Shown here piece by piece: positions 3,078-25,982 of a DNA stretch of 33,040 bases (positions within the stretch are counted from its first letter, which is position 1; each line of letters begins with the position of its first letter). This DNA is from a virus, in the IMG/VR virus record IMGVR_UViG_3300028008_000059, positions 1 through 33,040 of that record; one strand, written 5' to 3'. The notes beneath the pieces are model-generated. The model was not told the DNA's origin. It worked only from the letters and a program-made list of their open reading frames with translations, and ran no database searches. The translations under genes were made by a program, and so were the position numbers.

Positions 3078-3115
3078 AATATTTAATACATGTTTAAAGT
3101 TGTGTATTAAATATT
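3078..3115. repeat. Perfect 13-bp inverted repeat in the SGNH/gp6 divergent intergenic region
   Basis: Left arm AATATTTAATACA (3078-3090) is the exact reverse complement of the right arm TGTATTAAATATT (3103-3115), separated by 12 nt. It lies 3 nt upstream of the minus-strand ATG and 15 nt before the first late-promoter box of gp6. It could be a regulator-binding site, or an mRNA hairpin in the 5' leader of the SGNH transcript. There is no G+C-rich stem, so it is not a typical terminator. Confidence 0.7.
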
Positions 3116-3129
3116 GGCTTAATTTAACT

Positions 3130-3137
3130 TATAAATA
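3130..3137 (+). promoter_or_regulatory. T4-type late promoter box (TATAAATA) upstream of gp6
   Basis: An exact match to the T4 late promoter consensus TATAAATA in the 117-bp intergenic region, 54 nt before the gp6 ATG. T4-like late promoters consist essentially of this -10 element, read by host RNA polymerase carrying gp55 and the gp33/gp45 co-activators. Function is inferred from sequence and position. Confidence 0.6.
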
Positions 3138-3159
3138 AAATACGCACTTATCTATTCTT

Positions 3160-3167
3160 AATAAATA
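3160..3167 (+). promoter_or_regulatory. Second late promoter box (AATAAATA) upstream of gp6
   Basis: NATAAATA-type element (AATAAATA) 24 nt before the gp6 ATG. This spacing matches the boxes at 21471, 25951 and 27457 (21-30 nt), so it is the better-placed of the two candidates for gp6. The ribosome site AGGA (3181-3184) follows at a normal distance. Confidence 0.55.
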
Positions 3168-3191
3168 CATGTAACAAACGAGGAATGAAAT

Positions 3192-6100
3192 ATGTCATCT
3201 ACTGACCGACAAAATAGACTGCTAGTAGCAGAGGATTGGAAGCGTATCTATCAAAGTTATAGAAACGCCGACTTTCAAAGTTATGACTTTGATAATTTAA
3301 GACGCACAATGATTAGTTATCTAAGGACTAATTACCCTGAAGATTTTAACGATTACATTGAAAGTTCTGAATACCTCGCATTAATTGATCTTATTGCATT
3401 CCTAGGTCAAAATATTGCATTCCGTATTGATCTAAATGCTAGAGAAAACTTCCTAGAACTAGCAGAGCGTAGAGAATCAGTTCTCCGTTTAGCACGGTTG
3501 CTTTCATACAATCCTAAACGTAACCAAGCCGCAGAAGGTTTATTAAAAATTAGTTCTGTCTCTACTACTGAAGATGTAGTAGATTCAAATAACTTTAATC
3601 TAGCAGGTCAGCAAATACAATGGAATGATCCGAGTAATACACAATGGTACGAGCAGTTTGTTAAAGTAATGAATGCCGCTTTGCCACAAAATGGCACTTT
3701 TGGCAAGCCAGCAAAAACAGCAACAATTAATAGTATACCGCATGAACAATATAGATTCAATGGTATTAACACAGATATACCTAAGTATTCTTTTACTAAA
3801 ACTATTCAAGGTTCAAGTTTACCATTTGAAGTAGTAAGTAGTGATATTGTTAACGGAGCATTAGAAGAAGAAATTCCACTCCAAGCAAACAGTTTTGCAA
3901 TGCTTTATAGAAATGATGGACAAGGACCAGCAAGTACAAATACTGGATTCTTTGCTTCTTTTAAACAGGGTTCTTTAGACTCGGGACAATTTAGTATTAA
4001 TAACCCTAGTAGTAATCAAAAGGTTGACATTGATGCAACTGATATCAATAACAAAGATGTTTGGTTGTATAAATTAGATGGACAAGGCCGCGAAACAGAA
4101 TATTGGACTAAAGTTGATGCTGTAGAAGGTAATAATGTTATCTATAATAGTTTAACTAAAGACGTTAGAAATTTATATTCAGTATTAACTAGAGTACAAG
4201 ATAGAATTAGTTTAGTGTTTAGTGATGGTGTATTTGGTAATTTACCACAAGGTAGATTTAAAGTAGTATATCGTACAAGTGCTAATAGTCGTTATACTAT
4301 TAAACCAAGTGAAATGTCAAATGTACAAATTCAAATACCTTATTTGAGTGCAGTCGGCGTACCAGAACAACTTACTTTAACACTACAATTAAAATACACA
4401 ATTTCAAATAGTACAACTAGTGAAAGTGACGAAAGTATTAAAGCAAACGCTCCGGCAACATACTACACACAAAACAGAATGGTTACAGCAGAAGATTATA
4501 ATGTTGCACCGTTAGCAGTAAGTCAAGAGATTGTAAAAGTAAAAACTGTTAATAGAAATGCAAGCGGAATTAGTAGATATTTTGATTTAATTGATTCTAC
4601 AGGAAAATACTCCAGCACTAATTTATTTGGTAACGATGGTGTAATTTACAAAGAAACAAATAATTTAAAAACTACTTTTAATTTTGTAACTACTACTGAT
4701 ATTGAACAAGCAATTACTAACACAATTGAACCTATTATAAAAGATAGAAAAGTATATAATTACTATCTACAAAATTTTACAAAAATCTTAACTGGAGATT
4801 TAGGCGTAGCATGGAATAGTTCAACTCAAGATACAAATAGAAGTACAGGGTATTTTACAGATGAAAATGATGTTACTTTTAAAGTAGGAACATTTACAGC
4901 AAATAATTTAAGATTTATTGAATCGGGTACATTACTTAAATTTACTGCACCAACAGGTATGCACTTTATGACAAGTAATAAAAATGTGTTAATGTCAGGT
5001 CCTGCAGATCATCCAGGAGCAGTTGAGTATCTTTGGACAAAGGTTATTAGTGTATCAGGAAACGGAACAACAGTTGGTTCAACTGGACTAGGACCAGTTG
5101 TACTGAATGATTTAATTCCAGGAGATGCAATACTACAAGAAGTAAAACCAAAACTTGCTAACATAATTACAGATTCAGTCAAAACACAAATTGTTGATCA
5201 AGCATTTGCAACAAATACATTTGGACTACGATATGACGTTGAAACACGACAGTGGAGAATTATCACTGAACAAAATATTGATAGTATTTCAGCATTTAGT
5301 ACAGGTAAAGCAGGCGACTCAAGTAACCAAAATTTAGATGCAAGTTGGATATTATATTTTAAAACTGACGGCGAACGGTATGATATTACATATCGTACAT
5401 TGCGATACATATTTGAAAGTGATGCAGAAATTAAATTCTATTACGATAGTTCAGATAAAATTTATGATAATAAAACAGGTAAAATTATTAAAGATAAGAT
5501 TGAAGTTTTAAATATTAATAATAAGCCTGATGTTTCAACACCATTTACATCAAATTATAATTGGGAAATTGTAAAAGAATATAGAGATGCAGACGGGTAT
5601 GTAGATAGTAAGCGTATTGAAGTAAGTTTCTTTGATGCAGATGATGATGGTGTTATTGATAATCCAGAAGGATTTATTGATATTGTTGATGAAACAACTA
5701 ATGTTACTACAAAATATATTTTCCAAAAGAAATATACAACATCAGATGGTATTGAAGATTATAGATTTGTAGATAACACAGTTGAAGGAATTCAAATCAA
5801 AGCAAGTGCAAGTGCAATTGGTGCTTATTCATCTTACTCAGTAGGACAAGTATTTTTTACAATTGATACTCAACTATTCCATAAACTAGATAGTACAAAG
5901 AAAAATTTACAAATTATAAAAGACTATAGAGGATTTTTAGGACGCTCTAATCTTAAATTTAGATATTTACATAGTGCTGATTATGATCAACGTATTGATC
6001 CAGCAGTAAGCAACATTATGGATTGCTATATGTTAACACGCACATACGATATTGCATACAGACAATTTTTAAACGGCGATCGTACAGTTGCACCGTTGCC

Positions 6101-6668
6101 GCCGAGCAGTGACGAAATGTACCGCACATATGGTACTGACTTAGATAAAATTAAATCTATTAGTGACGAAATAATTTATCATCCAGTTAGTTATAAACCA
6201 TTATTTGGTACATCAGCAGAGACTAGTTTACAAGCAACATTTAAAGTAGTTACAAATAAAGATGAAGTTGTAAACAACAACGATATTAAGTCACGTGTAA
6301 TTGAAGCAATTAATGTTTATTTTAATTTAGACAACTGGGAGTTTGGAGAGTCATTTTACTTCTCGGAACTATCAACCTATATTATGAATCAAATGACTCC
6401 AGATATAGTAAGTATAGTAATAGTTCCAAATGAACAAAGTCAGTCATTTGGTAGTTTATACGAAATTAAATCTGAGTCAAATGAGATTTTTATAAGTTCA
6501 GCAACAGTTGAAAATATAGAAATTATTGATGCTATTACAGCAAGCAGATTAAAAGCAACAGGAAATGTTATTACAACAAGTCAAGAAACAGTTAATACAG
6601 GAGTTACAAGTTCAACTCCATTGGCTGGATCTATTAGTAGTTCTAATAGCGGAGGATATAGTTACTAA
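3192..6668 (+). CDS. 6: Baseplate wedge protein, gp6-like (Baseplate_J family), enlarged
   Basis: 1,158 residues, well above the 660 of T4 gp6 but like the long gp6 proteins of marine T4-like phages. The N-terminus holds their signature: DNLRRTMISYLRTNYPEDFNDYIESSEYLALIDLIAFLGQ followed by FRIDLNARENFLELAERRESVLRLARLLSY (about 35-113). The Baseplate_J-type core with FSDGVFGNLPQGRFKVVYRTS is near residues 341-361, and a C-terminal wedge segment with VIEAINVYFNLDNWEFGESFYFSELSTYI is near 1036-1065. gp6 dimers form the ring that, with gp25 and gp53, joins the six wedges around the hub. Extra beta-rich sequence in the middle accounts for the length. AGGA (3181-3184) precedes ATG 3192, and two late boxes lie upstream. 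Its stop overlaps the ATG of the giant gene (TAATG), implying coupled synthesis of two neighbouring baseplate parts. Confidence 0.9.
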   Translation: MSSTDRQNRLLVAEDWKRIYQSYRNADFQSYDFDNLRRTMISYLRTNYPEDFNDYIESSEYLALIDLIAFLGQNIAFRIDLNARENFLELAERRESVLRLARLLSYNPKRNQAAEGLLKISSVSTTEDVVDSNNFNLAGQQIQWNDPSNTQWYEQFVKVMNAALPQNGTFGKPAKTATINSIPHEQYRFNGINTDIPKYSFTKTIQGSSLPFEVVSSDIVNGALEEEIPLQANSFAMLYRNDGQGPASTNTGFFASFKQGSLDSGQFSINNPSSNQKVDIDATDINNKDVWLYKLDGQGRETEYWTKVDAVEGNNVIYNSLTKDVRNLYSVLTRVQDRISLVFSDGVFGNLPQGRFKVVYRTSANSRYTIKPSEMSNVQIQIPYLSAVGVPEQLTLTLQLKYTISNSTTSESDESIKANAPATYYTQNRMVTAEDYNVAPLAVSQEIVKVKTVNRNASGISRYFDLIDSTGKYSSTNLFGNDGVIYKETNNLKTTFNFVTTTDIEQAITNTIEPIIKDRKVYNYYLQNFTKILTGDLGVAWNSSTQDTNRSTGYFTDENDVTFKVGTFTANNLRFIESGTLLKFTAPTGMHFMTSNKNVLMSGPADHPGAVEYLWTKVISVSGNGTTVGSTGLGPVVLNDLIPGDAILQEVKPKLANIITDSVKTQIVDQAFATNTFGLRYDVETRQWRIITEQNIDSISAFSTGKAGDSSNQNLDASWILYFKTDGERYDITYRTLRYIFESDAEIKFYYDSSDKIYDNKTGKIIKDKIEVLNINNKPDVSTPFTSNYNWEIVKEYRDADGYVDSKRIEVSFFDADDDGVIDNPEGFIDIVDETTNVTTKYIFQKKYTTSDGIEDYRFVDNTVEGIQIKASASAIGAYSSYSVGQVFFTIDTQLFHKLDSTKKNLQIIKDYRGFLGRSNLKFRYLHSADYDQRIDPAVSNIMDCYMLTRTYDIAYRQFLNGDRTVAPLPPSSDEMYRTYGTDLDKIKSISDEIIYHPVSYKPLFGTSAETSLQATFKVVTNKDEVVNNNDIKSRVIEAINVYFNLDNWEFGESFYFSELSTYIMNQMTPDIVSIVIVPNEQSQSFGSLYEIKSESNEIFISSATVENIEIIDAITASRLKATGNVITTSQETVNTGVTSSTPLAGSISSSNSGGYSY

Positions 6669-9600
6669 TGTCATACGACGATAATCAAAACGAGAACCCA
6701 CTACCAACAGGCGGTTCCAACGGCTACTCATCAAACTCGCTATTACCTAAGTATTTTAGATCATCTAAGAATAAAAAGTTTTTAGATGCAACTCTTGATC
6801 AAATATTACAACCAGGTACAGCACAAAAGTTAAACGGCTTTTATGGCAGACGTACAGCAAAGTCTTATAGAGGTAGCGACAACTATATTGGCGATGTTTC
6901 AGTTAATAGAGAAGCATATCAATTAGAGCCAGTAGTACTTGCAAAAGATACATATGACAATGTAACATTTTATAAAGACTATAACGATTATATTAACCAA
7001 ATTAAAGCGTTCGGCGGCAATGTTGATAATCATGACTTACTAAATGGTGCAGAATATTCAGCATGGAACCCAAATATTGATTGGGATAAGTTAACAAACT
7101 TCCGAGAGTACTATTGGTTACCAAATGGACCAACAGCAATTAGTATTGCAGGCCAAAGTACAGAAGTAACAAGTGCATTTAACATCACTAGTATTGACAA
7201 TGGTAATAATCTTTCTTATGTTGTTAACGGAAACTTAACACAAAATCCTACGATTGAATTATTCAAAGGACAAACGTATACCTTTGTTGTATCAGCAACA
7301 GATATGCCATTTACAATACGTACAGAGCGTAGTTTAGATGCTGACACTGTTTATGAACTAGGTATTACTAATCAAAATATTGAAGAAGGTACTGTTACAT
7401 TTACTGTTCCACTTAATGCACCAACTAGATTGTATTATCAAAATAGTAATAACATTAACTCCGGCGGAATTATTAGAATTGCTGAAGTTGACGAAGCAAC
7501 AGCAATTGATGTAGAACAAGAAATACTTGGCAAAGCATCGTACACATCTTCTAAAGGTGTAGAGTTATTAAACGGAATGAAGTTAAACTTCATAGGTGAT
7601 GTTACTCCAGCAAAGTATGCTGTAGGCAATTGGATAATTGAAGGCGTAGGAGATAGTATTTCGTTAGTTAATACTGACGATCTTGTTATACCGTTGTCGT
7701 ATGCAGTTGATATTCCTGTGCAATATGATCAAGAAGAATTTGATAGTTTACCTTTTGGTAATGCGGCATCATATAGTGCTACTAAAGACTACATTGTTAT
7801 TAATAGAAATTCACCTGATAAAAATGCATGGTCAAGAAACAATAACTGGTATCATAGAGCAGTTATTGAAAAAAGTGCAGAGATAAATGGACAAGTAGTT
7901 TCAATTGACCAAGCACAACGAGCAAAGCGTCCTATTATTGAATTCGACAGTGGTTTAAAATTATACAATTTTGGAACAGAAAAGAAAAACGATATTGACT
8001 TAGTTGATACAGTCACTAAAGATATCTTTTCGGTAATCGAAGGCTCAACTGGTTATAATATTGACAGCGTTGATGTTACAGATGGTATGCGTATTTTGTT
8101 TACTGCTGAAAAAGATATTAGAGCAAACGGCAAGATTTATAAAGTTAAATTTCTTAAACATAACAGTACAACACCACAAATTAGTTTAATAGAAGATACT
8201 GATGCAACTCCGTTAGAAAATGAAGTTGTATTAATACGTAAAGGTACAGTAAACGCAGGCCAGCATTATTATTATAATGGCACAGCATGGCTTGCTGGAC
8301 AAGTTAAATCTAAAGTTAATCAGTCACCAATGTTTGATATGTTTGATAAAAATGGTGTTAGTTATTCAAACGCAACAACATATGAAACAAGTACATTTAC
8401 TGGCAACAAAGTTTTTAGTTATAAAGAAGGTACTGGTACTGCTGATACAGAACTAGGATTTCCAATTACATATCGAGCGCTTACTAACGTAGGTGATATT
8501 ACATTTAATTTTGATTTATTAACTGAAACATTTACACACCAAAGAGTTCAAAACATTTTAACAGAAAAATGCGATCAAGGATTTGTAAAAAAATATACAT
8601 CATTGAATGCTTTCAAATATAAAAATGGTTGGACTAAAGCCAAGTCATTAAGTACACAACGAGTAATACGTCAGTATGATGTTGATGGTGAAATTAGTCA
8701 ATTAGAAATTGATGTTTATGACAAAGCAGGTGATTTAAATGATTTAGAAGTTAGCGTATTAGTAAACAATGCACACAACTTTGATTATACATTATCACGT
8801 CAAGACGGACTAGCATTTGTAGTATTTAATAAGCCATTGGATGCAGGCGACTCTGTTATTTTAAGAACAAAGTCTGCAACTAAGAAAAATTCAAATGGTT
8901 ATTATGACTTTCCAACTAACTTAGAACATAATCCAAACAATATTAATTTAACTACATTTACCTTAGGCGAAGTAAATGATCATGTGTTTAGTATGATTGA
9001 AGACTTACCAGGCTTTACAGGAATATTTCCAGGAAATACAAACTTAGGTAATTTAGGTGATATTAGCACAGTTGGTAAAAAGTTTGTCCAACACGCAGGA
9101 CCAATTAATAATGCATTATACCACATTACTACAAAAGAAGCAAACGTAGTAAAAGCACTTGATTTTGCAAAAAATGAATTTAGAACTTTCAAAAGATCAT
9201 TTTTACAAGTTGCTGAGAACTTAGGGTTCGACGGACCTATTAAAACACATGTTGATAATGTTCTTGTTGAAGTATTAAAAAACAAAACTTCAAGTGATCC
9301 GTTTTATTTTAGTGACATGGTTCCGTACTCAGGAAATAAGCGTTTAGAATTTACAGTTTATGATCCGGAAAATAATTTCTTTAGTTTAACAAAGGCATTT
9401 GATAAAACAACACTTAGTAATAAAGCAGTAACAATTTATCAAAATGGTGTACAGTTAGCACATGGTAGAGATTATACTTTTAATACTGATGGCTTTGCTG
9501 TAATTACAGCAACAAAAGCAGACAATGATTTAATTGAAATTTTTGAATATGAAAGTACTGACGGTTGTTTTATTCCTAGTACACCAACAAAATTAGGTTT

Positions 9601-12600
9601 ATATCCTGCATACGTTCCAGAAATAATTCTTGATGATTCGTATAGAACTCCAACAAATGTTATTATCGGACATGACGGAAGTAAAACTGTTGCATATAAT
9701 GATTATAGAGATGCATTACTACTTGATTTAGAAAGAAGAATCTATAATAACATTAAATCTAAGTATGATATTACTAAACTTGATATACATGATTTTATTC
9801 CAAGTTCGTACAGAGATACAAAAATTAATATCGACAATATCGATAATGTATTATTAAGTGATTTTATTAAATGGAGTGAAAGTTTAGGCGGTATTGATTA
9901 TACAACTAATAGTTTCTACGAGTTAACTGATGCTTTCACATATAATTATTCTTATATGTCTGGTCCACAGGGTCAACAGTTAAAAGGATTTTGGCGTGGC
10001 GTTTACAAAACGGCTTACGACACAGATCATCCACATACACATCCTTGGGAGATGCTAGGCTTTACAGTTAAACCAACTTGGTTTGATACTGTTTACGGTA
10101 CAGCACCATATACAAGTAATAACTTAATACTTTGGGAAGATCTTGAAGAAGGTAAAATTGCTGAGCCAGGCAAAACAGTACGTTATAATAAAAAATATAA
10201 AAGACCAGGGTTAACAAAACATATACCTGTTGACGAAAATGGTGACTTATTAAGTCCGTTACAAAGTAAGTATGCTAGAGAATATATTTCGGAATATACT
10301 AAATTAGGATTTAAATTTGGAGATCATTCACCTGCAGAGACTGCGTGGCGATCAACTAGTGATTATGCATTTAGTTTAATTAAATCTTGGTTACTAAACC
10401 AACCAGCCAAGTTTATGTCACTAGCATGGGATACTTCTCGTATTAGTAAAAACTTAGCAGAACAATTTGTATATACTGAAAGTAATCGTTCAATATCTTT
10501 AAAGGATTTAGTGTTTACTAATGTATTTGGAGATTCTAAAAGAGTGTATACATCAGGGTTAGTAGATTATATTGTTAACTATACTTTAACTAATACAGCA
10601 ATAACTACTCCTGATTACAAAGAACAATTAACAAGTCTAAAATATCAATTAGGTATGAAACTTGGTGCATTTACTGATAAAGATAAAATGAAATTTATCT
10701 TAGACAGTAGAACTCCGTATAACAAGGGTAATGTATTTTTACCTAAAGAAAATTATCAAATAACTTTAAACACAAGTTCACCTGTTGAAGTAGTTTCTTA
10801 TAGTGGTGTAATTATAGAAAAACAAAGTTATGGATATGTTATAAGAGGCTATGACAGAGAAAATCCAGTCTTTAAAATAAACAAAGCATTAGATCGTGCA
10901 AACGACCCAGCAGTAAATGTTGGAGGTATAAGTGAAGCATTTATTGAATGGGACGAAGATAAACAATATACTGTAGACAAGTATGTAAGATATAACTCAA
11001 GTTTTTATAGAGTAATAGAAGCACATACTTCTACTACTGCATTTGACCCAGATAAGTTTACAAAAATACCTGAGTTACCAAATAGAGGCGGTAGCACAGC
11101 AGTATTCCGTAAAAACTTTGAAACATCAATCACTGAAGTTCCATACGGAACAGTATTTGTTACTATACAGGACACGGTTGATTTTATCTTAGGATATGCG
11201 GCTCAACTTGAACAAACAGGATTTAACTTTGATTTTTATAATAGTGACACTCAAGTTGTTGAAGATTGGCGTTTCAGTACAAAAGAATTTTTATACTGGA
11301 CTACACAAAACTGGTCCGCTGGTACAGTTATTGCACTAAGTCCAAGTGCTAATCAACTTAAATTTACTAGACCATATACTGTAGTAGATGACTTATATGA
11401 TAATTTTTATGATTATTCTTTAATGGAAAGTACTGGTAAACCGCTACAAGGAGAATATACAAGATTAACTCGAGAGGCTAATACTTTTGCAATTAATTTA
11501 TCAAACACAACAGACGGAATTTACTATGTACAACTTCCGTTAGTACAAGTTGAACATGTTGCTATACTTGATAATACTTCGGATTTTAAAGATGTGATTT
11601 ATTCACCTGCATCAGGTTATAGACAAGATCGTATTAAGGTAGTAGGTTATAGAACTGCAAACTGGGATGGAACATTAAACATTCCAGGCTTTATATTTGA
11701 CCAAGCAGAAGTTACAGAATGGAAACAATATAACGATTACGCAATCGGCGACACAGTCCGTTATAAAGAATACTATTATGCCGCAAAGAATAAAATTGCT
11801 GGTACTGAAAAATTTGTTGCAAACGAATGGAACAGAATAGATAAGCGTCCAGAAACTAAATTATACACAAACTTTGATTATAGAATTAATCAGTTTACAG
11901 ATTTTTATGATCTTGATTCAGATAACTTTGATAATGAACAACAGCGTATGGCGCAACATTTAATTGGTTATCAGAAGCGACAGTATTTAGAAAATATTAT
12001 TAACGATGATGTTAGTCAGTATAAATTCTATCAAGGGTTTATACAAGATAAAGGTACTAGAAATAGTATTGATAAATTGTTTGATGCATTAGCAAGCGCC
12101 GATAAAGAGTCTGTAGACTTTTATGAAGAATGGGCTGTTAAAAATAGCCAGTATGGTGCAACGTCAAACTTTGACGAAATTGAATGGCAAATAGATGAAT
12201 CAAAGTTTCAACTAAGTCCGCAACCAATTTCTTTAGTTGAAACATTACCGCCAGCAACAACAGATTTAATTTATAGAATACCTAATTATGACGTATTCTT
12301 AAAACCAGATAATTACGATGTAAATAAAATTCCAACAAAATATACTAACGAAGAGTATGTTAAAACTGTAGGATATGTAACTGGTGAAGATGTTAGTCGT
12401 GCAGTGCTTACAAAAGATAGCATAGTTAACTTTGCAATTAGTGATATTAATAAAAATGATTATATTTGGGTTGCAACAAGTAATCAAACTTGGGACGTTA
12501 TTCAGCATACTGAAACAGATTTGCGTCTTGAAAATGCAGAACCAACAGGCCAAGATGTTGAACTTACATTAAACTATACAGCACGTGAAATTCTTGTAGG

Positions 12601-15600
12601 CGATATATTTGGCATCACAAACGCAAACACAGAAGCATTGACTACGTTAGATGGATTCTACAAAGCAACTAAAGTACAAGGCAATAAAGTAACATTTACA
12701 ACAACAAATTTTGATTGGACAGAAATTGACGACACTGTTGAACTTCCTAAAGCCACTATTACTATCTTTACAAGTCAACGTACAGCAACTATAAATGATG
12801 CTAATAAAAATGTAAGTGCAAATTTAAGTAAAGATGAATTAGTTTGGATTGATGACGATGATTATGGTAAATGGACTGTACTCAAAAATACTCCAACGTA
12901 TAGTGAAAATCAGCAAATTTTAAGTTCATTAGATTTAGATAGTACAATGCATGGCTTTGGACATTCGATTAGTGTTAATGAAAACAATACTAAAATGGCA
13001 GTTGGTATTCCCTACAAAGGAAACGGAGTTGTACATGTTTATGTGCGTCCAAGTGATAGTACAAACTATGTATTAGATCAAATTATTGAAGCACCAACAG
13101 ATGTTGCAGATGCATACGACGGTAGTACTCCTACAACATCAATGAATTTTGGTGAAAGTGTTGCCCTTAGTCCAAATGGAAATTATCTTGTAATTGGCTC
13201 GCCGCAAGCATCAAACATTTTTAGTTTTTACAGAGGCGACTTTAAACAAGGCGTTAAGTATACAAAAGCACAAATTGTTAAGTATGGACCAAATCTATAC
13301 AAAGCAATTCAAAACATTGATCCAGCAACCGGAGCAATTCAATTTAGTAGTTTTGATTCGTATTTAGAGTTAGTACCTGATAGTGACAGTTCACTTGTTA
13401 ATTTATTGCAAACAGGCAATTATAAAATTAATGACACTTCAGTTAGTCACATGCTTATTAGAGCACCATTAAATGCATACGAAGGCAGTGCTAACAATGA
13501 TGATATAGTATTAGAATGGAATAACTTTAGTAAACTTAACCTTCAAGGAAGTACAGTAGATGTACAACCATTTGATGGACAATTTGCAGGAATTACAGGA
13601 GCGTTTTTAACAGCAACGCATAATATTCGTTATAAAATTGATAATGTACTAGTAATTGAAAATTTTGTAAACTTACCACAAATTGGCAATACACTTTCAA
13701 GTAGCATTGCAAGTGGTGAAGTAATTTATGTAGCAAATAGTTTAACAACTTGTACAGTATATTTGGCAAATGTAAACGGTACATTTGCAACTACAGATTC
13801 TGTATTTGTAGGAACAACACGTATTGGTGATTACGTCGAAGATTATCGTGCAGGTACAGGCAACTTAGGCGGCTACTGGTGGATTGATACACCTTCATAT
13901 ACAACAAGTGCAGATAGTTCAAATGTATTTGTTGATCCAGGACATGGATTAGTATTCCGTGATTTACTTACAACTGCTAGTGGCAGAGTAACACCAAATA
14001 TGTATCATAATATTACAACTGCTAGACAGTTAGCAATACAAGATGCTACAAATTCAGGTTCAACATTAAGTTTAATGGATCAAGCAGAATTTATGCAAAC
14101 ACTTACTTATGAAGGTGATCCAGGTGAAGTATTTGCATTACAACCATCCGACTTATGGACAGTTAGAGCACCAACAGCATTATCATTATCGATTGGCGAT
14201 ACGTTTAAAATGGTTGTTGATAGTGTTAGTGGAAATACAGATTTTACAGACTCGACATTTAGCACATCACTAATTAATAAAGAACATACAGTATATCAAT
14301 TGTGGGATGGCTATCTTGACTTTACGTTTGATGAATTTAGCCAAGCAACACAGTTACCATTTGAACCAATTATAGGTGACACTGTTTCAGACGGTGCTAC
14401 TGGTGCAACTGCAACTATTACATTCTACAAACGCCAGTTTAACACAGTGCGAATTTATGTAACTAATGTATCGGGCACTTGGAGTAAAGGTGATGGCTAT
14501 AATGAAACAGCAAAAATAAATCGAGTAAGAGGTGCATCAGTACGTCCTATAGGAACTCTTAATGGCGCATCATTATCAGGTACACGAGTAGGTAAAATTG
14601 TTGTATTACAGGAAACTACAAACTTCCCTGATGCAACAGTAACAGAATTAAACAATTTTGAATATTGGTTCTTTAATGAAACAACATTATCAGGTATACC
14701 ACGTGAAGCAAACATTCCGGCTTCAAATAATAATGATTGGCAATTAGTAACTAATATTCCAGTGTCAAGTGACAATGGTACAATAGCAAGTGGATTAGAA
14801 CTAGAAGGTATGTTTAGTGTTTATGACCTAAACGAAAAGATACAATTTAAAGTTCAAAATCATTATACAGTACCAGAAAGAAAAGCACATGCACGTTTAG
14901 GTGATGAAGTAGATTTTACACTAGAAGGAAATCTATATAGACTTAGTATTGCTTCAAAAGGTGATGGAAAATTAAATAATGCGGGTAGTATACATTTTGT
15001 TAAACACGGATCGGTTACTAAAGAACTAGTAACTACAACGTATGATTGGCAATTAGATATTGATCCAAACTTTAGAGGCGAGTTCCATACAACAGTATTC
15101 TATAAACAAGGAGAGATTGTAGAATATGAAGATAGACTTTATAAAGCATTAAGAAATATTGCAAGTGGTAGTGCGTTTGTTACACCTGATTGGGAATTAG
15201 TAACCGACGGTACAGCACATGTTGGATTTATACCAACAGCAGGCACAAACAGAATTATTGGTGAAGAAGTGTTTGATCCAGAATTTGGTGTGAGAGACTT
15301 TGCAAGACAGTTTGATCAAGATAAAGATGGTGATGTATTAATAGTAAGTTCACGAATTCAAGGTAACGATAGTTCCGGCGAACGTGTTATAGTAGTTTAC
15401 AGGCGTTTACCAGAAGGTCAAATGACAGTATCACAAACTATTAAACCTCCATACGAAGATTTATCAACAGGGTCATTTACGGGCTTTGGTGATAGCATTA
15501 GTATTAGTAATGACGGCGAGTTAATTGCTATTGGCGAACCTTACAACGATGACTACAAACGAGATCAAGGTAAAGTATACATTTACAAATTAGTGAATGG

Positions 15601-18600
15601 ACAGTTTGTACTATCTCAAGAAATACAAAGTCCAAATAATGAACAAGCAGAACATTTTGGTGCTTACTTAAATTTTGATGGAAATCAGTTAGCAGTAACT
15701 TCATTGAACGGCGATATTGAAAAACCAACTACGTTTGACCTTAACACAACAGTATTTGATGACGAATTTACAAACTTTAAATCAGTTGAAATGGACAGCG
15801 GCATTATTTTCATGTATGAAAGAATTAATAATTCGATGCTATTTGCACAAGAATTTATTATAGACGAACCGTTAGCAATGAACTTTGGTAAAAACTTGTT
15901 AGTAAATAATAATCACATTTACACAGCAATACCTGAAGTAACAGACTTGTTAACATATCAAGGTATGATTGTTGACTTTAGAAAAACAATCGGCGCCAAG
16001 TCTTGGAACGTACATAGATCACCAATTGATCAAGTAGATATTAATAAAATTAAAAGTGCTTTCTTATATAATGTAAAAACAAACACACTTGTTGAAGATC
16101 TAGATTATATTGATCCAGTACAAGGTAAAGTAGCAGGCATAGCAGAACAAGAACTATCATATAAAACATATTATGACCCAGCAGTATTCAGTATTGGCGA
16201 CGACACAGTTGTAATTGATGAAAATAATTCTTGGGGTAGAGATTATGTAGGCCAATTATGGTGGGATATTAGTGCAGTTAAATTTTATAACTATCAACAA
16301 AATAATATTACATACCAAACAAACTATTGGGGAGAAGTATTCCCAGGTACTAGTGTAGAAGTTTATGAATGGGTAGAAAGTGATTTACTACCAAGTGAAT
16401 GGGATGCTTTATCAGATAGTGAAGAAGGTGTTGCACAAGGAATTAGTGGAACAACTAGATACGGAGATTTTGTATATTCACAAAAACTAACATGGGATCC
16501 TATTTCAAAAACTAGTAAACCTAAGTATTTTTACTGGGTAGCAAATAAGCGTGTTACACCACGTGTTGAAGGCAGACGTATTACAGCATACGATGTTAAA
16601 AGATTAATTGAAGATCCAGTTGGACAAGGATATAAGTTTGTTGGCTTAATGGCTAAAGACAGATTTGTATTGTTTAATTGTGAATCACTATTAAGTGGCG
16701 ACGATGTTGCATTTAATTTGCGTTATCATACACTTGATAATGTTGATCAAAATATCCATAATGAATATCAAATGCTCACACAAGGAGTTGGATCAAGTAA
16801 ACCAAACCGTGACATTGAGCAAAAATGGATTGATAGTTTAGTTGGTTATGACAAACAGTTTAGATTAGTACCAGATCCAAAACTTAGTGCAAAAATAAAA
16901 TATGGAATTAATAATAATCCAAGACAATCGATGTTTATTAACAAAGCAGAAGCACTTAAAGAAGTAGTTGACCGTGTTAATTCTATATTAATAAACAATA
17001 TTATTGTTGATGAGTTTGATATTAGTGATTTAACTAAAAGCGATCCGTTACCATTATCGACATCAAGACGGTATGATCTAAAAATTGACACTTTTGAAGA
17101 TTTACAATATGTTGGTGTAGCAAAACGCATCACTGCTTCTTTAACACCAACAATAGTTGATGGTAAAATTACAGGAGTTACTATTACAAACTCAGGTAGA
17201 GGATATATTGACCCAACATATACATCAACTGTTGGCGGTATAAGACTTGGACCGCAAGTAACTGTTACTGGTATTGGTAAAGACGCTGTTCTTGAAACAG
17301 AAATTAATGAACTAGGACAAATTACTACAGTTAATATTATTGACCCAGGTACAGGATACGATGAAAATACAGTAATTACTGCAAGAAACTTTACAGTTAT
17401 TGTTACAACAGATTCAACAGTATTAAATAAGTGGGCGTTATATAATTATAATGGTACAAAGTGGAATAGAACTATAAGTCAGCGTTTTGATACTAATTTA
17501 TATTGGGATTACCAAGACTGGTATGATATAGGTTATAATGAGTTCACAGAAATTAATTCATTAATAGACTTTAGTTACCAATTAACGTCGATTGAGAATG
17601 ACATTGGTGATACTGTTAAGATATCAAGTGTTGGCTCTGGTGGCTGGTTGCTATTAGAAAAGATTGCAAACTTACAAACAGAAGATTACACACAAAATTA
17701 TAAAGTTGTTGGTAAAGAAAATGCAACTATACAGTTTAGTCAAAACTTATATAACACAGTTATTAACAAAACTGGGTACGATACTGATACTTTTGACATA
17801 GCATTTTATGATAGCCAACCAGTTAAAGAAACTAGAATTATACTTGAAACAATTAGAGATAAAATATTTGTAGATAACTTAGATGTACATTATAATGAAT
17901 TGTTTATTGCTAGTATACGTTATGCATTTAGTGAACAGCCTAATATTGACTGGGCATTTAAAACATCTTTCATAAAAGCACAACATAACGTAGGTGATTT
18001 AACACAAAAAGTTACATTTAAGAACGACAACATTGAAAACTTCCAAGATTATATTAACGAAGTTAAACCATTCAAAACAAAAATTAGAGAATATGTCTCT
18101 AGTTATGAAAAAACAGATCCAACTAATAGTGTAGTAACAGATTTTGACTTACCGCCAAAGTATGATTTTGCTAAAAAGAAAATTAGTAGTTCTACTGCTA
18201 AACTTAAAGATAATACAATTACAAGTATGCCAAATAGTACTAGCACTTACCCAGATAAGCACTGGTTAGAAAATAGCGGATATGAAATATCAAGTATTAA
18301 CGTTGGTAATGCAGGTACTGGATACATTTTACCTCCGACAGTTAGTATAGAAGGCGGCGGAGGTTCGGGTGCAAAAGCAAAAGCGTTCCTTAATGCTGGC
18401 AAGGTTTCAAAAATTGAAGTTACAGCGCCAGGCACTGGATATTTAACAGCACCGGCAATAATACTAAATGGTACTACATCCGATGGCGGCACACTAGCAG
18501 TTGCTAGAGCAGTATTAGGAAATGGTAAAGTTCGTGGAACTCATGTTATATCACGTTTTGATAGAATTAGCGGACAACCTTACTATTTAGAAGTTGCTAG

Positions 18601-21475
18601 AACACAAACATTTACAGGTGATTCAAAAACTTCAGTATATAAACTAAAATGGCCAATGAACTTAAATGGTGCAAAGGTAAAAATTTACATTGATGGTGTT
18701 GAATTACTAAAAAGTGAATATACATATAACAACTTTGCAGACACTACCAAGTCTTACACTAGAAAAATTGGTCAAGTAATATTTACTACACCGCCTTTAT
18801 TAACTAAAGTTGTAAAAATTGATTATGAATTAGCACCAGACTTGTTAACAGCACAAGATAGAATTCAATCTTATTATAATCCAGTTGATGGTATGGTAGG
18901 TAAAGATATTTCACAGTTAATGACAGGTGTTGACTTTGGTGGAGTTGAAGTTAAGAGTTTTGATTTTGCAGGCAACGGTGGTTTTGAAACAAAAGGTTAC
19001 GGTATCGAAGCATACGACTTATATGATGCAACGTTTAACGATTTAATATTCTACTTAGACGGATCAACAGCAGTATTACAATGGGACACTCCGTTAGAAA
19101 ACGGAGTTGTGTATAATCTTTACAAAAATAATGTAAGACTTGATGATCCAAACTGGCCAAGTAGCCCTACTAATCCAAATGCTGTTCTAGCAAGTATTAC
19201 AGGCGATGATGCACTAGTAGAATTTAATATTCAAGATTACGGAATTACTAGTAGAGATGACGACATCTTTGTTATAAGAAAAACAACTAGTGATGGTAGT
19301 TTCCTTCCAGATCCTGCAAGTTACGATACACAGTTAGACGGTGGTGTATTAGCATATAGTAATGCTAAAGGTATTTCAGCAAGTGAAATTGTTGTTGACG
19401 GCGATGGATTTATTACGCCAATGACAACTACTGGTCCAGAAGAATTGATTCCAGGCAAAATTTCAGATACTGTTGACATTAAGGTATTCCATAGACCGGA
19501 TGCAGGTACAAGTAACGTACAAACACAGTTCTTTACAACAGATGGAACAACACAGACATACGATCTTGGAATACATCCTCATAATAGTGAAGCAGTATTT
19601 GTATCACTTGACAATGTTGTATCAACAGCATACACAATTAACTATGCTAATGATACAATTACTTTTACAACTGCTCCGGCAGCCGGCAAAGTACTAAGCA
19701 TAGTTACACTTGGTGTAAACGGACAGACAATTTTAGATATTAACAAGTTTATAGCAGACGGTAGTACAAATACATATACAACTAATATACAGTATCAAAC
19801 TGGAGTAAGCCATTTTGTTAATATAAACGGCCAAGCAATTACATCAACACTAAGTGAAGGTGTAGATGGATGGTTTGTAATTACATTTGATACAGCCCCG
19901 CAAACAGGACAAGTTGTTGATTACGGATTGTTCTACTCAACAGGAACTAACTTTAGTGCAACTAATGTACAAACTTTGATCGGTGACGGAAGTTCGACAA
20001 TATTTGATATGTCTCCTGCAATTATAGGCGGTTTGCCAACAGCACAGAACGCTATTGTAAGTATAAACGGCGCAATACAAGATGCTGGATATAATGTAGA
20101 TTTTACAATTACAGATTCTAATGTTAGAGAATATCAAGTCCAAGAATGGCAAGTTTTCTCAAACAGTGTTAGAGGTGAAGATATTGAAGTATACTTAAAC
20201 AATGAATTATTAAGAAGAAACATTCAATACAGATGGGATAGTGCAAACAACAGTGTTATATTATCAGCAGGTATTGGATCGCTTAATGATATAATTGATG
20301 TGTTCTTTAGTATTGATGGTCAATATGCATTTGGATATATCGGAGAAGATGACGATAGTAGTACTAAGTTTATTTCAGATAGAACTAAAATTTACTTTGA
20401 TACAGCACCAGCACTAGGCGATACAATTAAAATTACAGGCTTTAGTAATCATGACGTTCAAGATATTGAACGTATTAAATATGATTTAATAAGTCGTGTT
20501 CCGTTAGTACCAGGAACAACTAACTATCAAGAATATATTAATCTTAGTAGCGGACTTGTAAAACTTAGACATAAATCACAAGACTCAGAATATGTATGGG
20601 TTATAGTTAATGGAGTTAAACTAGCGCCAAACGTTGATTATTATGTAACTGAAGATCTTATGCATGTTAAAATTATCTCACAACTTAGTGCAAACGATAA
20701 AGTTGAGTACATACAGTTTGGTGAAGAACAATTAACACATAGATTTGGATTTAGACAGTTTAAAGACATATTGAACCGTGTTCACTACAAGCGGTTAGAC
20801 AATGCGAATAAGTATAAATTAGCACAAGACTTAAATTGGTGGGATACTAGAATCGAACTAGTTGATGCTTCCAACTTACCAGAACCTGGTAAGAAGAAAC
20901 AAATACCAGGAGTTGTGTTTATTAACGGTGAAAGAATTGAGTACTACGTGAAACAAGGAAATAGTTTACGCCAACTACGTAGAGGCACATTAGGCACTGG
21001 TGTAAGTACACTTCTTACAAGTGGTACTGAAGTAAGAGACCAAAGTCCAGGCGAAAATATTCCGTACAAAGATCAGACACTTACACAGTTGTTTACAGCA
21101 GACGGTACAACGGCTTCATATGAATTAGATTTTACACCTACACAAGGTATAAATGAATTTGAAGTATTTGTTGCAGGGCGCAGACTTCGTAAAAATACAA
21201 TTAGTAGTTACCAGGTAGATACTAAAGATATTAACGGAAACTTTGTAACTAGGTTTATTGCACAGGATAGTGTAGAAGGTGATACTACATTACCAGTAGA
21301 ATTTACATTAACTGGAAGTACATTAGACTTAACAGTAACACCTGAAGCAGAACAGAAGGTTGTAGTGGTTAGAAGAGTTGGCCAAACATGGACTAAGGCA
21401 GGAGAAAGCCTAGTTGATGCAAAAAATGACATAGCGGAGTTTCTTAAGGCGAGAACAACGGAACTACCTAAATAA
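6668..21475 (+). CDS. Giant (4,935-residue) modular baseplate/tail structural protein, positional candidate for the gp7 slot
   Basis: One uninterrupted frame of 14.8 kb directly coupled to gp6. The N-terminus (SLLPKYFRSSKNKKFLDATL, residues 24-43, then a W/Y-rich block to about 155) resembles the start of giant structural proteins of marine T4-like phages. Modules seen: a cupredoxin-like beta domain (about 190-275) without obvious metal ligands; four carbohydrate-binding-module-5/12-like hairpins (about 1425, 1682, 2192 and 2802); FG-GAP/beta-propeller blades at about 2094 and 2159 and again at about 2878, 2940, 2996 and 3071; two pairs of GxGY beta repeats (about 3510/3558 and 3880/3920); a C-terminal array of phage beta-sandwich units starting DGxTxxY (about 4288, 4361, 4437, 4810); and the INGERIEYY...RRGTLGTG motif (about 4751-4780). 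No signal peptide or membrane segment was seen. Its position after gp6 corresponds to T4 gp7, but homology to gp7 cannot be shown by eye. Likely role: peripheral baseplate scaffold with glycan-binding surfaces. Confidence 0.8.
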   Translation: MSYDDNQNENPLPTGGSNGYSSNSLLPKYFRSSKNKKFLDATLDQILQPGTAQKLNGFYGRRTAKSYRGSDNYIGDVSVNREAYQLEPVVLAKDTYDNVTFYKDYNDYINQIKAFGGNVDNHDLLNGAEYSAWNPNIDWDKLTNFREYYWLPNGPTAISIAGQSTEVTSAFNITSIDNGNNLSYVVNGNLTQNPTIELFKGQTYTFVVSATDMPFTIRTERSLDADTVYELGITNQNIEEGTVTFTVPLNAPTRLYYQNSNNINSGGIIRIAEVDEATAIDVEQEILGKASYTSSKGVELLNGMKLNFIGDVTPAKYAVGNWIIEGVGDSISLVNTDDLVIPLSYAVDIPVQYDQEEFDSLPFGNAASYSATKDYIVINRNSPDKNAWSRNNNWYHRAVIEKSAEINGQVVSIDQAQRAKRPIIEFDSGLKLYNFGTEKKNDIDLVDTVTKDIFSVIEGSTGYNIDSVDVTDGMRILFTAEKDIRANGKIYKVKFLKHNSTTPQISLIEDTDATPLENEVVLIRKGTVNAGQHYYYNGTAWLAGQVKSKVNQSPMFDMFDKNGVSYSNATTYETSTFTGNKVFSYKEGTGTADTELGFPITYRALTNVGDITFNFDLLTETFTHQRVQNILTEKCDQGFVKKYTSLNAFKYKNGWTKAKSLSTQRVIRQYDVDGEISQLEIDVYDKAGDLNDLEVSVLVNNAHNFDYTLSRQDGLAFVVFNKPLDAGDSVILRTKSATKKNSNGYYDFPTNLEHNPNNINLTTFTLGEVNDHVFSMIEDLPGFTGIFPGNTNLGNLGDISTVGKKFVQHAGPINNALYHITTKEANVVKALDFAKNEFRTFKRSFLQVAENLGFDGPIKTHVDNVLVEVLKNKTSSDPFYFSDMVPYSGNKRLEFTVYDPENNFFSLTKAFDKTTLSNKAVTIYQNGVQLAHGRDYTFNTDGFAVITATKADNDLIEIFEYESTDGCFIPSTPTKLGLYPAYVPEIILDDSYRTPTNVIIGHDGSKTVAYNDYRDALLLDLERRIYNNIKSKYDITKLDIHDFIPSSYRDTKINIDNIDNVLLSDFIKWSESLGGIDYTTNSFYELTDAFTYNYSYMSGPQGQQLKGFWRGVYKTAYDTDHPHTHPWEMLGFTVKPTWFDTVYGTAPYTSNNLILWEDLEEGKIAEPGKTVRYNKKYKRPGLTKHIPVDENGDLLSPLQSKYAREYISEYTKLGFKFGDHSPAETAWRSTSDYAFSLIKSWLLNQPAKFMSLAWDTSRISKNLAEQFVYTESNRSISLKDLVFTNVFGDSKRVYTSGLVDYIVNYTLTNTAITTPDYKEQLTSLKYQLGMKLGAFTDKDKMKFILDSRTPYNKGNVFLPKENYQITLNTSSPVEVVSYSGVIIEKQSYGYVIRGYDRENPVFKINKALDRANDPAVNVGGISEAFIEWDEDKQYTVDKYVRYNSSFYRVIEAHTSTTAFDPDKFTKIPELPNRGGSTAVFRKNFETSITEVPYGTVFVTIQDTVDFILGYAAQLEQTGFNFDFYNSDTQVVEDWRFSTKEFLYWTTQNWSAGTVIALSPSANQLKFTRPYTVVDDLYDNFYDYSLMESTGKPLQGEYTRLTREANTFAINLSNTTDGIYYVQLPLVQVEHVAILDNTSDFKDVIYSPASGYRQDRIKVVGYRTANWDGTLNIPGFIFDQAEVTEWKQYNDYAIGDTVRYKEYYYAAKNKIAGTEKFVANEWNRIDKRPETKLYTNFDYRINQFTDFYDLDSDNFDNEQQRMAQHLIGYQKRQYLENIINDDVSQYKFYQGFIQDKGTRNSIDKLFDALASADKESVDFYEEWAVKNSQYGATSNFDEIEWQIDESKFQLSPQPISLVETLPPATTDLIYRIPNYDVFLKPDNYDVNKIPTKYTNEEYVKTVGYVTGEDVSRAVLTKDSIVNFAISDINKNDYIWVATSNQTWDVIQHTETDLRLENAEPTGQDVELTLNYTAREILVGDIFGITNANTEALTTLDGFYKATKVQGNKVTFTTTNFDWTEIDDTVELPKATITIFTSQRTATINDANKNVSANLSKDELVWIDDDDYGKWTVLKNTPTYSENQQILSSLDLDSTMHGFGHSISVNENNTKMAVGIPYKGNGVVHVYVRPSDSTNYVLDQIIEAPTDVADAYDGSTPTTSMNFGESVALSPNGNYLVIGSPQASNIFSFYRGDFKQGVKYTKAQIVKYGPNLYKAIQNIDPATGAIQFSSFDSYLELVPDSDSSLVNLLQTGNYKINDTSVSHMLIRAPLNAYEGSANNDDIVLEWNNFSKLNLQGSTVDVQPFDGQFAGITGAFLTATHNIRYKIDNVLVIENFVNLPQIGNTLSSSIASGEVIYVANSLTTCTVYLANVNGTFATTDSVFVGTTRIGDYVEDYRAGTGNLGGYWWIDTPSYTTSADSSNVFVDPGHGLVFRDLLTTASGRVTPNMYHNITTARQLAIQDATNSGSTLSLMDQAEFMQTLTYEGDPGEVFALQPSDLWTVRAPTALSLSIGDTFKMVVDSVSGNTDFTDSTFSTSLINKEHTVYQLWDGYLDFTFDEFSQATQLPFEPIIGDTVSDGATGATATITFYKRQFNTVRIYVTNVSGTWSKGDGYNETAKINRVRGASVRPIGTLNGASLSGTRVGKIVVLQETTNFPDATVTELNNFEYWFFNETTLSGIPREANIPASNNNDWQLVTNIPVSSDNGTIASGLELEGMFSVYDLNEKIQFKVQNHYTVPERKAHARLGDEVDFTLEGNLYRLSIASKGDGKLNNAGSIHFVKHGSVTKELVTTTYDWQLDIDPNFRGEFHTTVFYKQGEIVEYEDRLYKALRNIASGSAFVTPDWELVTDGTAHVGFIPTAGTNRIIGEEVFDPEFGVRDFARQFDQDKDGDVLIVSSRIQGNDSSGERVIVVYRRLPEGQMTVSQTIKPPYEDLSTGSFTGFGDSISISNDGELIAIGEPYNDDYKRDQGKVYIYKLVNGQFVLSQEIQSPNNEQAEHFGAYLNFDGNQLAVTSLNGDIEKPTTFDLNTTVFDDEFTNFKSVEMDSGIIFMYERINNSMLFAQEFIIDEPLAMNFGKNLLVNNNHIYTAIPEVTDLLTYQGMIVDFRKTIGAKSWNVHRSPIDQVDINKIKSAFLYNVKTNTLVEDLDYIDPVQGKVAGIAEQELSYKTYYDPAVFSIGDDTVVIDENNSWGRDYVGQLWWDISAVKFYNYQQNNITYQTNYWGEVFPGTSVEVYEWVESDLLPSEWDALSDSEEGVAQGISGTTRYGDFVYSQKLTWDPISKTSKPKYFYWVANKRVTPRVEGRRITAYDVKRLIEDPVGQGYKFVGLMAKDRFVLFNCESLLSGDDVAFNLRYHTLDNVDQNIHNEYQMLTQGVGSSKPNRDIEQKWIDSLVGYDKQFRLVPDPKLSAKIKYGINNNPRQSMFINKAEALKEVVDRVNSILINNIIVDEFDISDLTKSDPLPLSTSRRYDLKIDTFEDLQYVGVAKRITASLTPTIVDGKITGVTITNSGRGYIDPTYTSTVGGIRLGPQVTVTGIGKDAVLETEINELGQITTVNIIDPGTGYDENTVITARNFTVIVTTDSTVLNKWALYNYNGTKWNRTISQRFDTNLYWDYQDWYDIGYNEFTEINSLIDFSYQLTSIENDIGDTVKISSVGSGGWLLLEKIANLQTEDYTQNYKVVGKENATIQFSQNLYNTVINKTGYDTDTFDIAFYDSQPVKETRIILETIRDKIFVDNLDVHYNELFIASIRYAFSEQPNIDWAFKTSFIKAQHNVGDLTQKVTFKNDNIENFQDYINEVKPFKTKIREYVSSYEKTDPTNSVVTDFDLPPKYDFAKKKISSSTAKLKDNTITSMPNSTSTYPDKHWLENSGYEISSINVGNAGTGYILPPTVSIEGGGGSGAKAKAFLNAGKVSKIEVTAPGTGYLTAPAIILNGTTSDGGTLAVARAVLGNGKVRGTHVISRFDRISGQPYYLEVARTQTFTGDSKTSVYKLKWPMNLNGAKVKIYIDGVELLKSEYTYNNFADTTKSYTRKIGQVIFTTPPLLTKVVKIDYELAPDLLTAQDRIQSYYNPVDGMVGKDISQLMTGVDFGGVEVKSFDFAGNGGFETKGYGIEAYDLYDATFNDLIFYLDGSTAVLQWDTPLENGVVYNLYKNNVRLDDPNWPSSPTNPNAVLASITGDDALVEFNIQDYGITSRDDDIFVIRKTTSDGSFLPDPASYDTQLDGGVLAYSNAKGISASEIVVDGDGFITPMTTTGPEELIPGKISDTVDIKVFHRPDAGTSNVQTQFFTTDGTTQTYDLGIHPHNSEAVFVSLDNVVSTAYTINYANDTITFTTAPAAGKVLSIVTLGVNGQTILDINKFIADGSTNTYTTNIQYQTGVSHFVNINGQAITSTLSEGVDGWFVITFDTAPQTGQVVDYGLFYSTGTNFSATNVQTLIGDGSSTIFDMSPAIIGGLPTAQNAIVSINGAIQDAGYNVDFTITDSNVREYQVQEWQVFSNSVRGEDIEVYLNNELLRRNIQYRWDSANNSVILSAGIGSLNDIIDVFFSIDGQYAFGYIGEDDDSSTKFISDRTKIYFDTAPALGDTIKITGFSNHDVQDIERIKYDLISRVPLVPGTTNYQEYINLSSGLVKLRHKSQDSEYVWVIVNGVKLAPNVDYYVTEDLMHVKIISQLSANDKVEYIQFGEEQLTHRFGFRQFKDILNRVHYKRLDNANKYKLAQDLNWWDTRIELVDASNLPEPGKKKQIPGVVFINGERIEYYVKQGNSLRQLRRGTLGTGVSTLLTSGTEVRDQSPGENIPYKDQTLTQLFTADGTTASYELDFTPTQGINEFEVFVAGRRLRKNTISSYQVDTKDINGNFVTRFIAQDSVEGDTTLPVEFTLTGSTLDLTVTPEAEQKVVVVRRVGQTWTKAGESLVDAKNDIAEFLKARTTELPK
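7235..7500 (+). other. Cupredoxin-like module within the giant protein
   Basis: Residues about 190-277 read NPTIELFKGQTYTFVV, then MPFTIRT, then GTVTFTVPLNAPTRLYYQNS and GGIIRI. This follows the marine phage/bacterial cupredoxin-like pattern of an N-terminal strand, a PF.I+T strand, and a TF.VP..AP..LYY strand. In related modules the last strand usually continues into C-x-x-H...M-x-G ligands; here it reads LYYQNSNNINSGG, so copper binding is not expected. Confidence 0.5.
12947..13240 (+). other. FG-GAP/beta-propeller-like blades 1-2 of the giant protein
   Basis: Residues 2094-2191 hold two repeats of the form FG.S.....G..L.IG.P.....G...VY: HGFGHSISVNENNTKMAVGI with GVVHVYVRP, and MNFGESVALSPNGNYLVIGS with IFSFYRG. 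They end directly at a carbohydrate-binding-module-like hairpin (from 13241). The matching blades resume at about 15296. Confidence 0.55.
15296..15990 (+). other. FG-GAP/beta-propeller-like blades 3-6 of the giant protein
   Basis: Residues about 2877-3108 hold four more repeats: RQFDQDKDGDVLIVSS, TGFGDSISISNDGELIAIGE with GKVYIYKL, EHFGAYLNFDGNQLAVTS with GIIFMYER, and MNFGKNLLVNNNHIYTAIPE. They follow a carbohydrate-binding-module-like hairpin (about 2802-2846). Together with the blades at 12947-13240 they may complete a single propeller. Confidence 0.55.
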
Positions 21476-21478: not shown

Positions 21479-21499
21479 CACATAGCAGTGAGAGAAAAC

Positions 21500-22105
21500 A
21501 TGACAGACAAATTAAATGATAAAAGCGGAGTAGTAGTTAAAGGGCACATCAAAATACATGATCCTAGTTCAGGCGAAGTGTATGTTGATAAGCGTAACGC
21601 TATTCACTATGAAAATATGAGTATTGCACTTGCCGAAAGTCTTGCAAACCAAGGCCAGGGTATGATATACGAAATGAGTTTTGGCAACGGCGGCACAAGT
21701 GTTGACCCAACAGGTATTATTACATACTTAACGCCAAACAGTACAGGAACAAATGCTAGTTTGTATAATCAAACATTTACTAAAGTAGTAGATGATAGAA
21801 GTACAAGTAACACAGATCCTGTAAGAAATAAAATTGAAACACGTCATGTTAGCGGAACAAATTACACAGATGTTGTAGTAACTTGTTTGTTAGATTATGG
21901 TGAACCAGAAGGTCAGGATGCATTTGATACTGCTACAGATACAGACAACCTTTATGTGTTTGACGAATTAGGTCTTAAAAGTTATAGCCCATCGGGCGCT
22001 GGTAGATTAATTACTCATGTTATTTTCCACCCTGTACAAAAAAGTTTAAACAGATTAGTTCAAATTGATTATACAGTTCGTGTACAAAGTTTGTCAGGAG
22101 TATAA
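21500..22105 (+). CDS. Conserved small structural protein of the tail-fibre region, function unknown
   Basis: 201 residues from ATG 21500. An in-frame GTG at 21488 would add MREN, but ATG with upstream GAGAGAA is preferred. Opening: a lysine/aspartate-rich stretch with VVVKGHIKIHDPSSGEVYVD, then NAIHYENMSIALAESLANQ and IYEMSFGNGGTSVDPTGIITYL. A beta-rich C-terminus ends in VQIDYTVRVQSLSGV. I recognise the KGHIKI.DP.SGEV and FGNGGTSVD.TGVITY style from T4-like marine phages, where these proteins sit between the large baseplate gene and the collar-domain fibre. No enzymatic motif is visible. It ends 3 nt before the first fibre gene, suggesting a baseplate-to-fibre connector, an inference from position only. 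Confidence 0.7.
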   Translation: MTDKLNDKSGVVVKGHIKIHDPSSGEVYVDKRNAIHYENMSIALAESLANQGQGMIYEMSFGNGGTSVDPTGIITYLTPNSTGTNASLYNQTFTKVVDDRSTSNTDPVRNKIETRHVSGTNYTDVVVTCLLDYGEPEGQDAFDTATDTDNLYVFDELGLKSYSPSGAGRLITHVIFHPVQKSLNRLVQIDYTVRVQSLSGV

Positions 22106-25950: not shown

Positions 25951-25958
25951 GATAAATA
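25951..25958 (+). promoter_or_regulatory. T4-type late promoter box (GATAAATA) before fibre 3
   Basis: GATAAATA begins right after the fibre 2 stop and lies 24 nt before ATG 25983. A TATAAT follows at 25963-25968 but has no -35 at a usual distance, so the late box is the better candidate. AAAGGG just before the ATG is the ribosome site. Confidence 0.5.
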
Positions 25959-25982
25959 TAGTTATAATTAAAGGGTTGAAAC

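Follow-up and report, generated by a model that had tools for sequence, protein, structure and literature searches.

A single open reading frame of the window (the whole 33,040-base virus sequence that was analyzed, probably a fragment) encodes a giant protein of 4,935 residues and 553 kDa directly downstream of a gp6-type baseplate gene. We consider this giant very likely to be a baseplate wedge protein, because it belongs to the phrog_10938 family, lies in a gp25–gp6–giant slot and has homologues that are found in virions. It is probably the wedge component that takes the position of T4 gp7 in a contractile phage of the RaK2/PA5oct/Atu_ph07 type. The original prediction had placed the protein in the T4 gp7 slot and given it a role in the virion and baseplate; the gene order directly after gp6 bears out the former, and homologues together with gene order bear out the latter.

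In the architecture that we propose, six copies of the giant per virion would most likely each pair with two gp6 chains. The protein, positioned in the baseplate on the evidence of its gene order, would link the hub, the sheath initiator and the periphery, like (gp6)2–gp7 in T4 and (gp16)2–gp17 in Vibrio phage XM1. The scaffold would be built from the conserved blocks at residues 1–170, 360–1900 and 3100–3870, with a helical block (residues 1735–1865) as the top candidate for the gp6-binding core. The large insertions, which comprise a cupredoxin-fold domain, CBM5/12 domains, FG-GAP repeats and glycine-rich repeats, may act as spacers, as fibre-docking sites or as surface-contact modules.

An uninterrupted giant frame within a baseplate locus

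The unbroken 14.8-kb frame described in the original prediction is present as a single forward-strand ORF of 4,935 codons without internal stop, and its ATG overlaps the stop codon of the gp6-type ORF as TAATG, with a GGAGG upstream (Table 1). Its extreme length is the sole point in favour of an artefact in which separate genes were joined through sequencing or assembly error, a possibility that the prediction itself had named as one that would overturn it. A scan of IMG/VR with residues 1–1333 of the giant as query retrieved at least 599 relatives. The frame was open across the tested 1,040 residues in 49 of 49 related records, 42 of which carry a giant frame of 4,506–5,618 codons, and we therefore exclude both chance and sequencing error. 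One giant ORF is also found in ten cultured phages, and the virion product of phAPEC6 is reported as one 382-kDa protein, so that the artefact is vanishingly improbable. Most of the shorter frames among the IMG/VR relatives reach the end of the stored sequence. One frame (L055:10001-21040) closes early at 3,680 codons, near the end of the stored sequence, and another (L089:9974-18499) closes at 2,842 codons and may represent a split or frameshifted giant gene.

The giant is preceded by genes for lysozyme-type hub proteins and a PAAR protein and by gp25 and gp6, the last of which also matches TIGR02243 weakly, below the cut-off. Between gp25 and gp6, a reverse-strand gene (2220–3074) has only weak GDSL-lipase or glucosyltransferase-like matches. 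The giant is followed by a gene for a 205-residue protein of phrog_11259, a family of unknown function, and by consecutive fibre genes; the order gp6–giant–205-residue protein–fibres is maintained in six related records. In PA5oct, SCTP-2, Vibrio 2.275.O and Phosso, too, the giant is succeeded by a gene of about this size, and the 205-residue protein is possibly a connector between the giant and the fibres. The products of the three fibre genes are paralogous across their first 270–340 residues (34–36% identity), which suggests a common attachment domain. Genes from 27495 onward had no match in PHROGs; a mannosyltransferase-like gene (30569–31372) after the fibres was recognized through a weak match below the cut-off.

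Table 1. Features of the baseplate locus and of the giant protein (coordinates in the window; residues refer to the giant)
Feature	Coordinates	Strand	Basis
gp25-type baseplate wedge gene	1774–2223	+	PHROG/profile match
gp6-type baseplate wedge gene, 1,158 aa	3192–6668	+	phrog_10646 (E=0), phrog_219 (3e-21)
Giant gp7-slot virion protein	6668–21475	+	ORF, PHROG match, open in relatives, TAATG overlap
Conserved N-terminal block, residues 1–170	6668–7177	+	matches 9/9 jumbo homologues compared
Cupredoxin-fold domain without Cys or His, residues 164–277	7157–7498	+	model fold match; profile match to cyanophage gp9 C-terminus
Conserved blocks (putative scaffold), residues 360–1420	7745–10927	+	homologue comparison
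CBM5/12 domain, residues 1423–1469	10934–11074	+	Pfam and fold
Conserved block, residues 1480–1690	11105–11737	+	homologue comparison
Second CBM5/12-like domain, residues 1680–1728	11705–11851	+	weak fold match, Z 3–4, at model 481–538
Helical block with gp7-like motif, candidate gp6-binding core, residues 1735–1865	11870–12262	+	conservation, motif score, model
Fast-diverging module region, residues 1901–3080	12368–15907	+	identities to relatives
FG-GAP-like repeat, residues 2157–2183	13136–13216	+	weak; alone below cut-off
FG-GAP repeat, residues 2939–2973	15482–15586	+	Pfam
Conserved block, residues 3101–3470	15968–17077	+	homologue comparison
Glycine-rich repeat common to cyanophage giant, residues 3488–3564	17129–17359	+	profile comparison
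Conserved block, residues 3601–3870	17468–18277	+	homologue comparison
Glycine-rich repeat common to cyanophage giant, residues 3873–3961	18284–18550	+	profile comparison; phrog_460
C-terminal domain common to PA5oct, residues 4693–4768	20744–20971	+	42% identity
Conserved 205-aa protein, phrog_11259	21488–22105	+	PHROG match; conservation in relatives
Three fibre-type genes with common N-terminal region	22109–27461	+	profile matches; relatives

Relatives in cultured jumbo phages

The giant matches phrog_10938 ('virion structural protein') with E=0 and 1,021 bits over four stretches, and is thus, at the level of sequence, a larger member of an already known but functionally uncharacterized family. 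With tblastn, the family turned up in records of some 60 cultured phages, almost exclusively jumbo phages. The gp25–gp6–giant slot recurs in PA5oct (3,857 aa), Atu_ph07 (4,449), RaK2 (3,326), Vibrio 2.275.O (3,771), PBECO4 (3,333), CBB (3,340), Phosso (4,555), XbC2 (3,339), XacN1 (3,313) and RAS14 (3,138), where the gp25 and gp6 neighbours in RaK2, RAS14 and Vibrio 2.275.O, unnamed in the records, were assigned from size and order. Salicola phage SCTP-2 encodes a homologue of 3,807 residues. The unannotated gene adjacent to it, in the place expected for gp6 (L006:24272-33562), is itself very long at about 3,100 codons, and the gp6 of this phage may also have turned giant.

Members of the family are present in virions. 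PA5oct gp355 was seen in particles by mass spectrometry according to its record note, and CBB_236 was detected with 21 peptides in virion mass spectrometry (PMC5259590). Virion mass spectrometry of phAPEC6 yielded 17 unique peptides for the 381.88-kDa gp245 (PMC7247149), which we place in the family by its size and its position beside the 131-kDa wedge protein gp244 rather than by sequence.

Modules, conserved blocks and a candidate gp6-binding core

Comparison of the jumbo homologues delineates conserved blocks at residues ~25–170, 360–1900, 3100–3470 and 3600–3870. The modular make-up anticipated by the original prediction is in part confirmed: the CBM5/12 Pfam model matches with 46 bits (cut-off 26.2) over two stretches and the integrin-type propeller repeat FG-GAP_2 with 34.8 bits (cut-off 23), also over two stretches, but a search for the predicted fibre-like module within the giant detected none, recognizable fibre domains being found in the following genes. 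In total, the giant carries two CBM5/12 domains and two weak ones, with fold matches reaching a Z of 6.9 (r.m.s.d. 1.2–1.5 over 45 residues). An AlphaFold2 model of residues 164–277 adopts a cupredoxin fold (Z 10–11, r.m.s.d. about 2.3 over 100). Residues 161–285 contain neither of the sought copper ligands Cys and His, and this domain therefore has no blue-copper site. Sequence searches of the PDB returned chitin-binding modules for residues 1200–2000, one chance match and a weak similarity to a tail-spike repeat (28lx, 7e-4) for residues 3080–4279, and only a chance match for residues 1–1200. Cupredoxin and CBM domains filled the lists from fold searches with models of the giant, and a wedge protein was absent among the listed matches. 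The glycine-rich repeats also occur in many copies in a cyanophage giant.

Relationship to gp7 was assessed at the sequence level. Profiles of giant segments rose above noise against none of T4 gp6, gp7, gp8, gp9, gp10, gp11, gp12 and gp53, including the comparison with gp7, gp8 and gp10 that had been suggested as a check, and no segment matched the profiles of seven T4-type gp7 proteins. Ordinary profile searches and PDB sequence searches gave no link between the giant and T4 gp7 either. The baseplate-type N-terminus put forward in the original prediction found no support in this comparison, as controls scored equally high against the gp7 N-terminus.

T4-type gp7 proteins and the cyanophage giants have in common a core motif, FYxxKGTxxSxxxLF, which appears in the variant form FYLSRGT in the 498-residue gp7-slot protein of Xanthomonas phage X1; PHROG wedge models back the motif assignment for X1 and for the cyanophage ACG-2014d. 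In the giant's family, the helical block reads FYQGFIQDKGTRNSIDKLFDAL, and residues 1762–1823 of the giant hold a weak but correctly phased copy of the motif. This block is found in all homologues compared, XacN1 and RAS14 included. No other 30-residue stretch of the entire giant is as conserved as its residues 1762–1791, the next in rank being 126–155, 1120–1149 and 1794–1823. Against the gp7 core profile, the helical block ranked top of 37 segments (nominal P 0.0045, over 23 columns only), and its score was equalled by 0 of 200 column shuffles; when a smaller set was used, 1 of 200 did so. The profile–profile score was 21.7 over these 23 columns, compared with 73 for the T4–cyanophage positive control, and only 15 against T4 gp7 alone. 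A PHROG scan of the block gave phrog_10938 as the only clear match, the remaining weak matches being to unnamed families. AlphaFold2 modeled it as helices of low confidence, with gp7 absent among the listed fold matches; such helices would fit a part that folds on gp6, and equally a poor model. Homology of the giant to gp7 is thus no more than possible, because the alignment covers 23 columns and lies far below the positive control. The position after gp6 favours gp7; the sequence signal is weak.

A more specific, tentative reading, to which we give less than even weight, is that the giant is a true gp7 with a split core, in which residues about 20–170 and the helical block would bind gp6 together, separated by an insertion of ~1,600 residues. 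By analogy, the split would be of the type seen in cyanophage giants and would correspond in XM1 gp17 to the spike-docking loop. Should this reading be true, two distant phage groups would have made gp7 into a multi-domain outer platform via the same loop.

Alternative roles and comparison with known systems

The absence of detectable full-length similarity to gp7 would also suit a protein of the baseplate periphery or fibre network that is unrelated to gp7 and follows gp6 by chance, the job of gp7 being done by gp6 or another gene. The gp6 of the window is nearly double the size of its T4 counterpart (660 aa), and the giant's size and module-rich make-up would befit an outer structure. However, a search for another gp7 candidate within the window found none, the slot is identical in every relative checked whose neighbours can be told, and the most conserved block bears the weak gp7-core motif; we regard this alternative as rather unlikely.

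Host recognition, which the original prediction had proposed, is a possible function of the modules. The giant might then be mainly a recognition protein that determines host range by binding glycans on the host surface through its modules, as the CBM5/12 and FG-GAP modules could indicate and as XM1, where recognition parts attach to a gp7-type protein, sets a precedent for. When the window was compared with its relatives L015, L016, L018, L019, L041 and L088, identities were, in that order, 85, 72, 70, 70, 62 and 58% for gp6; 88, 70, 68, 68, 44 and 48% for fibre 1; 86, 67, 65, 65, 42 and 45% for fibre 2; and 75, 60, 53, 53, 34 and 32% for the best pieces of giant residues 1901–3080. These relatives do not amount to six independent points, because the L018 and L019 values are identical. 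The module region diverges fastest among the baseplate-locus pieces compared, outpacing both fibres tested, which fits an exposed, outward-facing surface but likewise weak constraint. By contrast, the 205-residue protein ranks first in conservation among the five locus pieces tested (76–98%; 98, 87, 86, 86, 76 and 79% in the same order). Recent module swapping was considered and rejected, as identity to L015 and L016 declines smoothly in the module region without the abrupt replacement expected of it. CBM5/12 folds moreover serve as structural parts of phage particles, with fold-search matches in the Milano baseplate complex, the 7-7-1 fibres, T4 gp23/gp24 and phage adaptors, and three dedicated fibre genes come next to the giant. 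A protein devoted mainly to host recognition accordingly appears improbable, and a wedge component in the gp7 position remains our preferred reading.

Genes of this family are among the largest of the entire jumbo-phage group and are annotated merely as 'structural protein'. Placing them at gp7, with a named candidate core and variable modules, makes their role testable in PA5oct, phAPEC6 and CBB, and suggests that the baseplate scaffold itself, besides the fibres, is a site of outer-surface diversification in these phages. The giant shares slot, conserved blocks and helical block with the phrog_10938 proteins PA5oct gp355, Atu_ph07 gp180, RaK2 gp70, PBECO4 gp538, CBB gp236, Phosso and XacN1 ORF325, but is longer (4,935 versus 3,138–4,555 residues), and its residues 1901–3080 have weak or no matches in them. 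It follows gp6 as does T4 gp7 (1,032 aa), whose (gp6)2–gp7 role we presume for it, although T4 gp7 has about one fifth of its size and full-length similarity is undetected.

Giants of 2,845–6,817 residues also follow gp6 in Kyanoviridae, a group of T4-like cyanophages, where several records annotate them as gp7 or baseplate wedge and where they bear the T4 gp7 motif. The present protein resembles these 'baseplate wedge initiator' giants (for instance that of ACG-2014d, 6,817 aa) in following gp6, in its glycine-rich repeats and, weakly, in FYxxKGT, whereas only the repeat modules match the ACG-2014d giant, most of the length shows no detectable similarity and the module order differs. What is new here is the occurrence of gp7-slot giants in two phage groups and a candidate, testable location for the gp6-binding core. 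In XM1, loops of the 242-residue gp7 homologue gp17 dock the tail spikes (PMC10457771), and this minimal form provides our working model for the giant, that of a wedge protein with loops docking host-recognition spikes.
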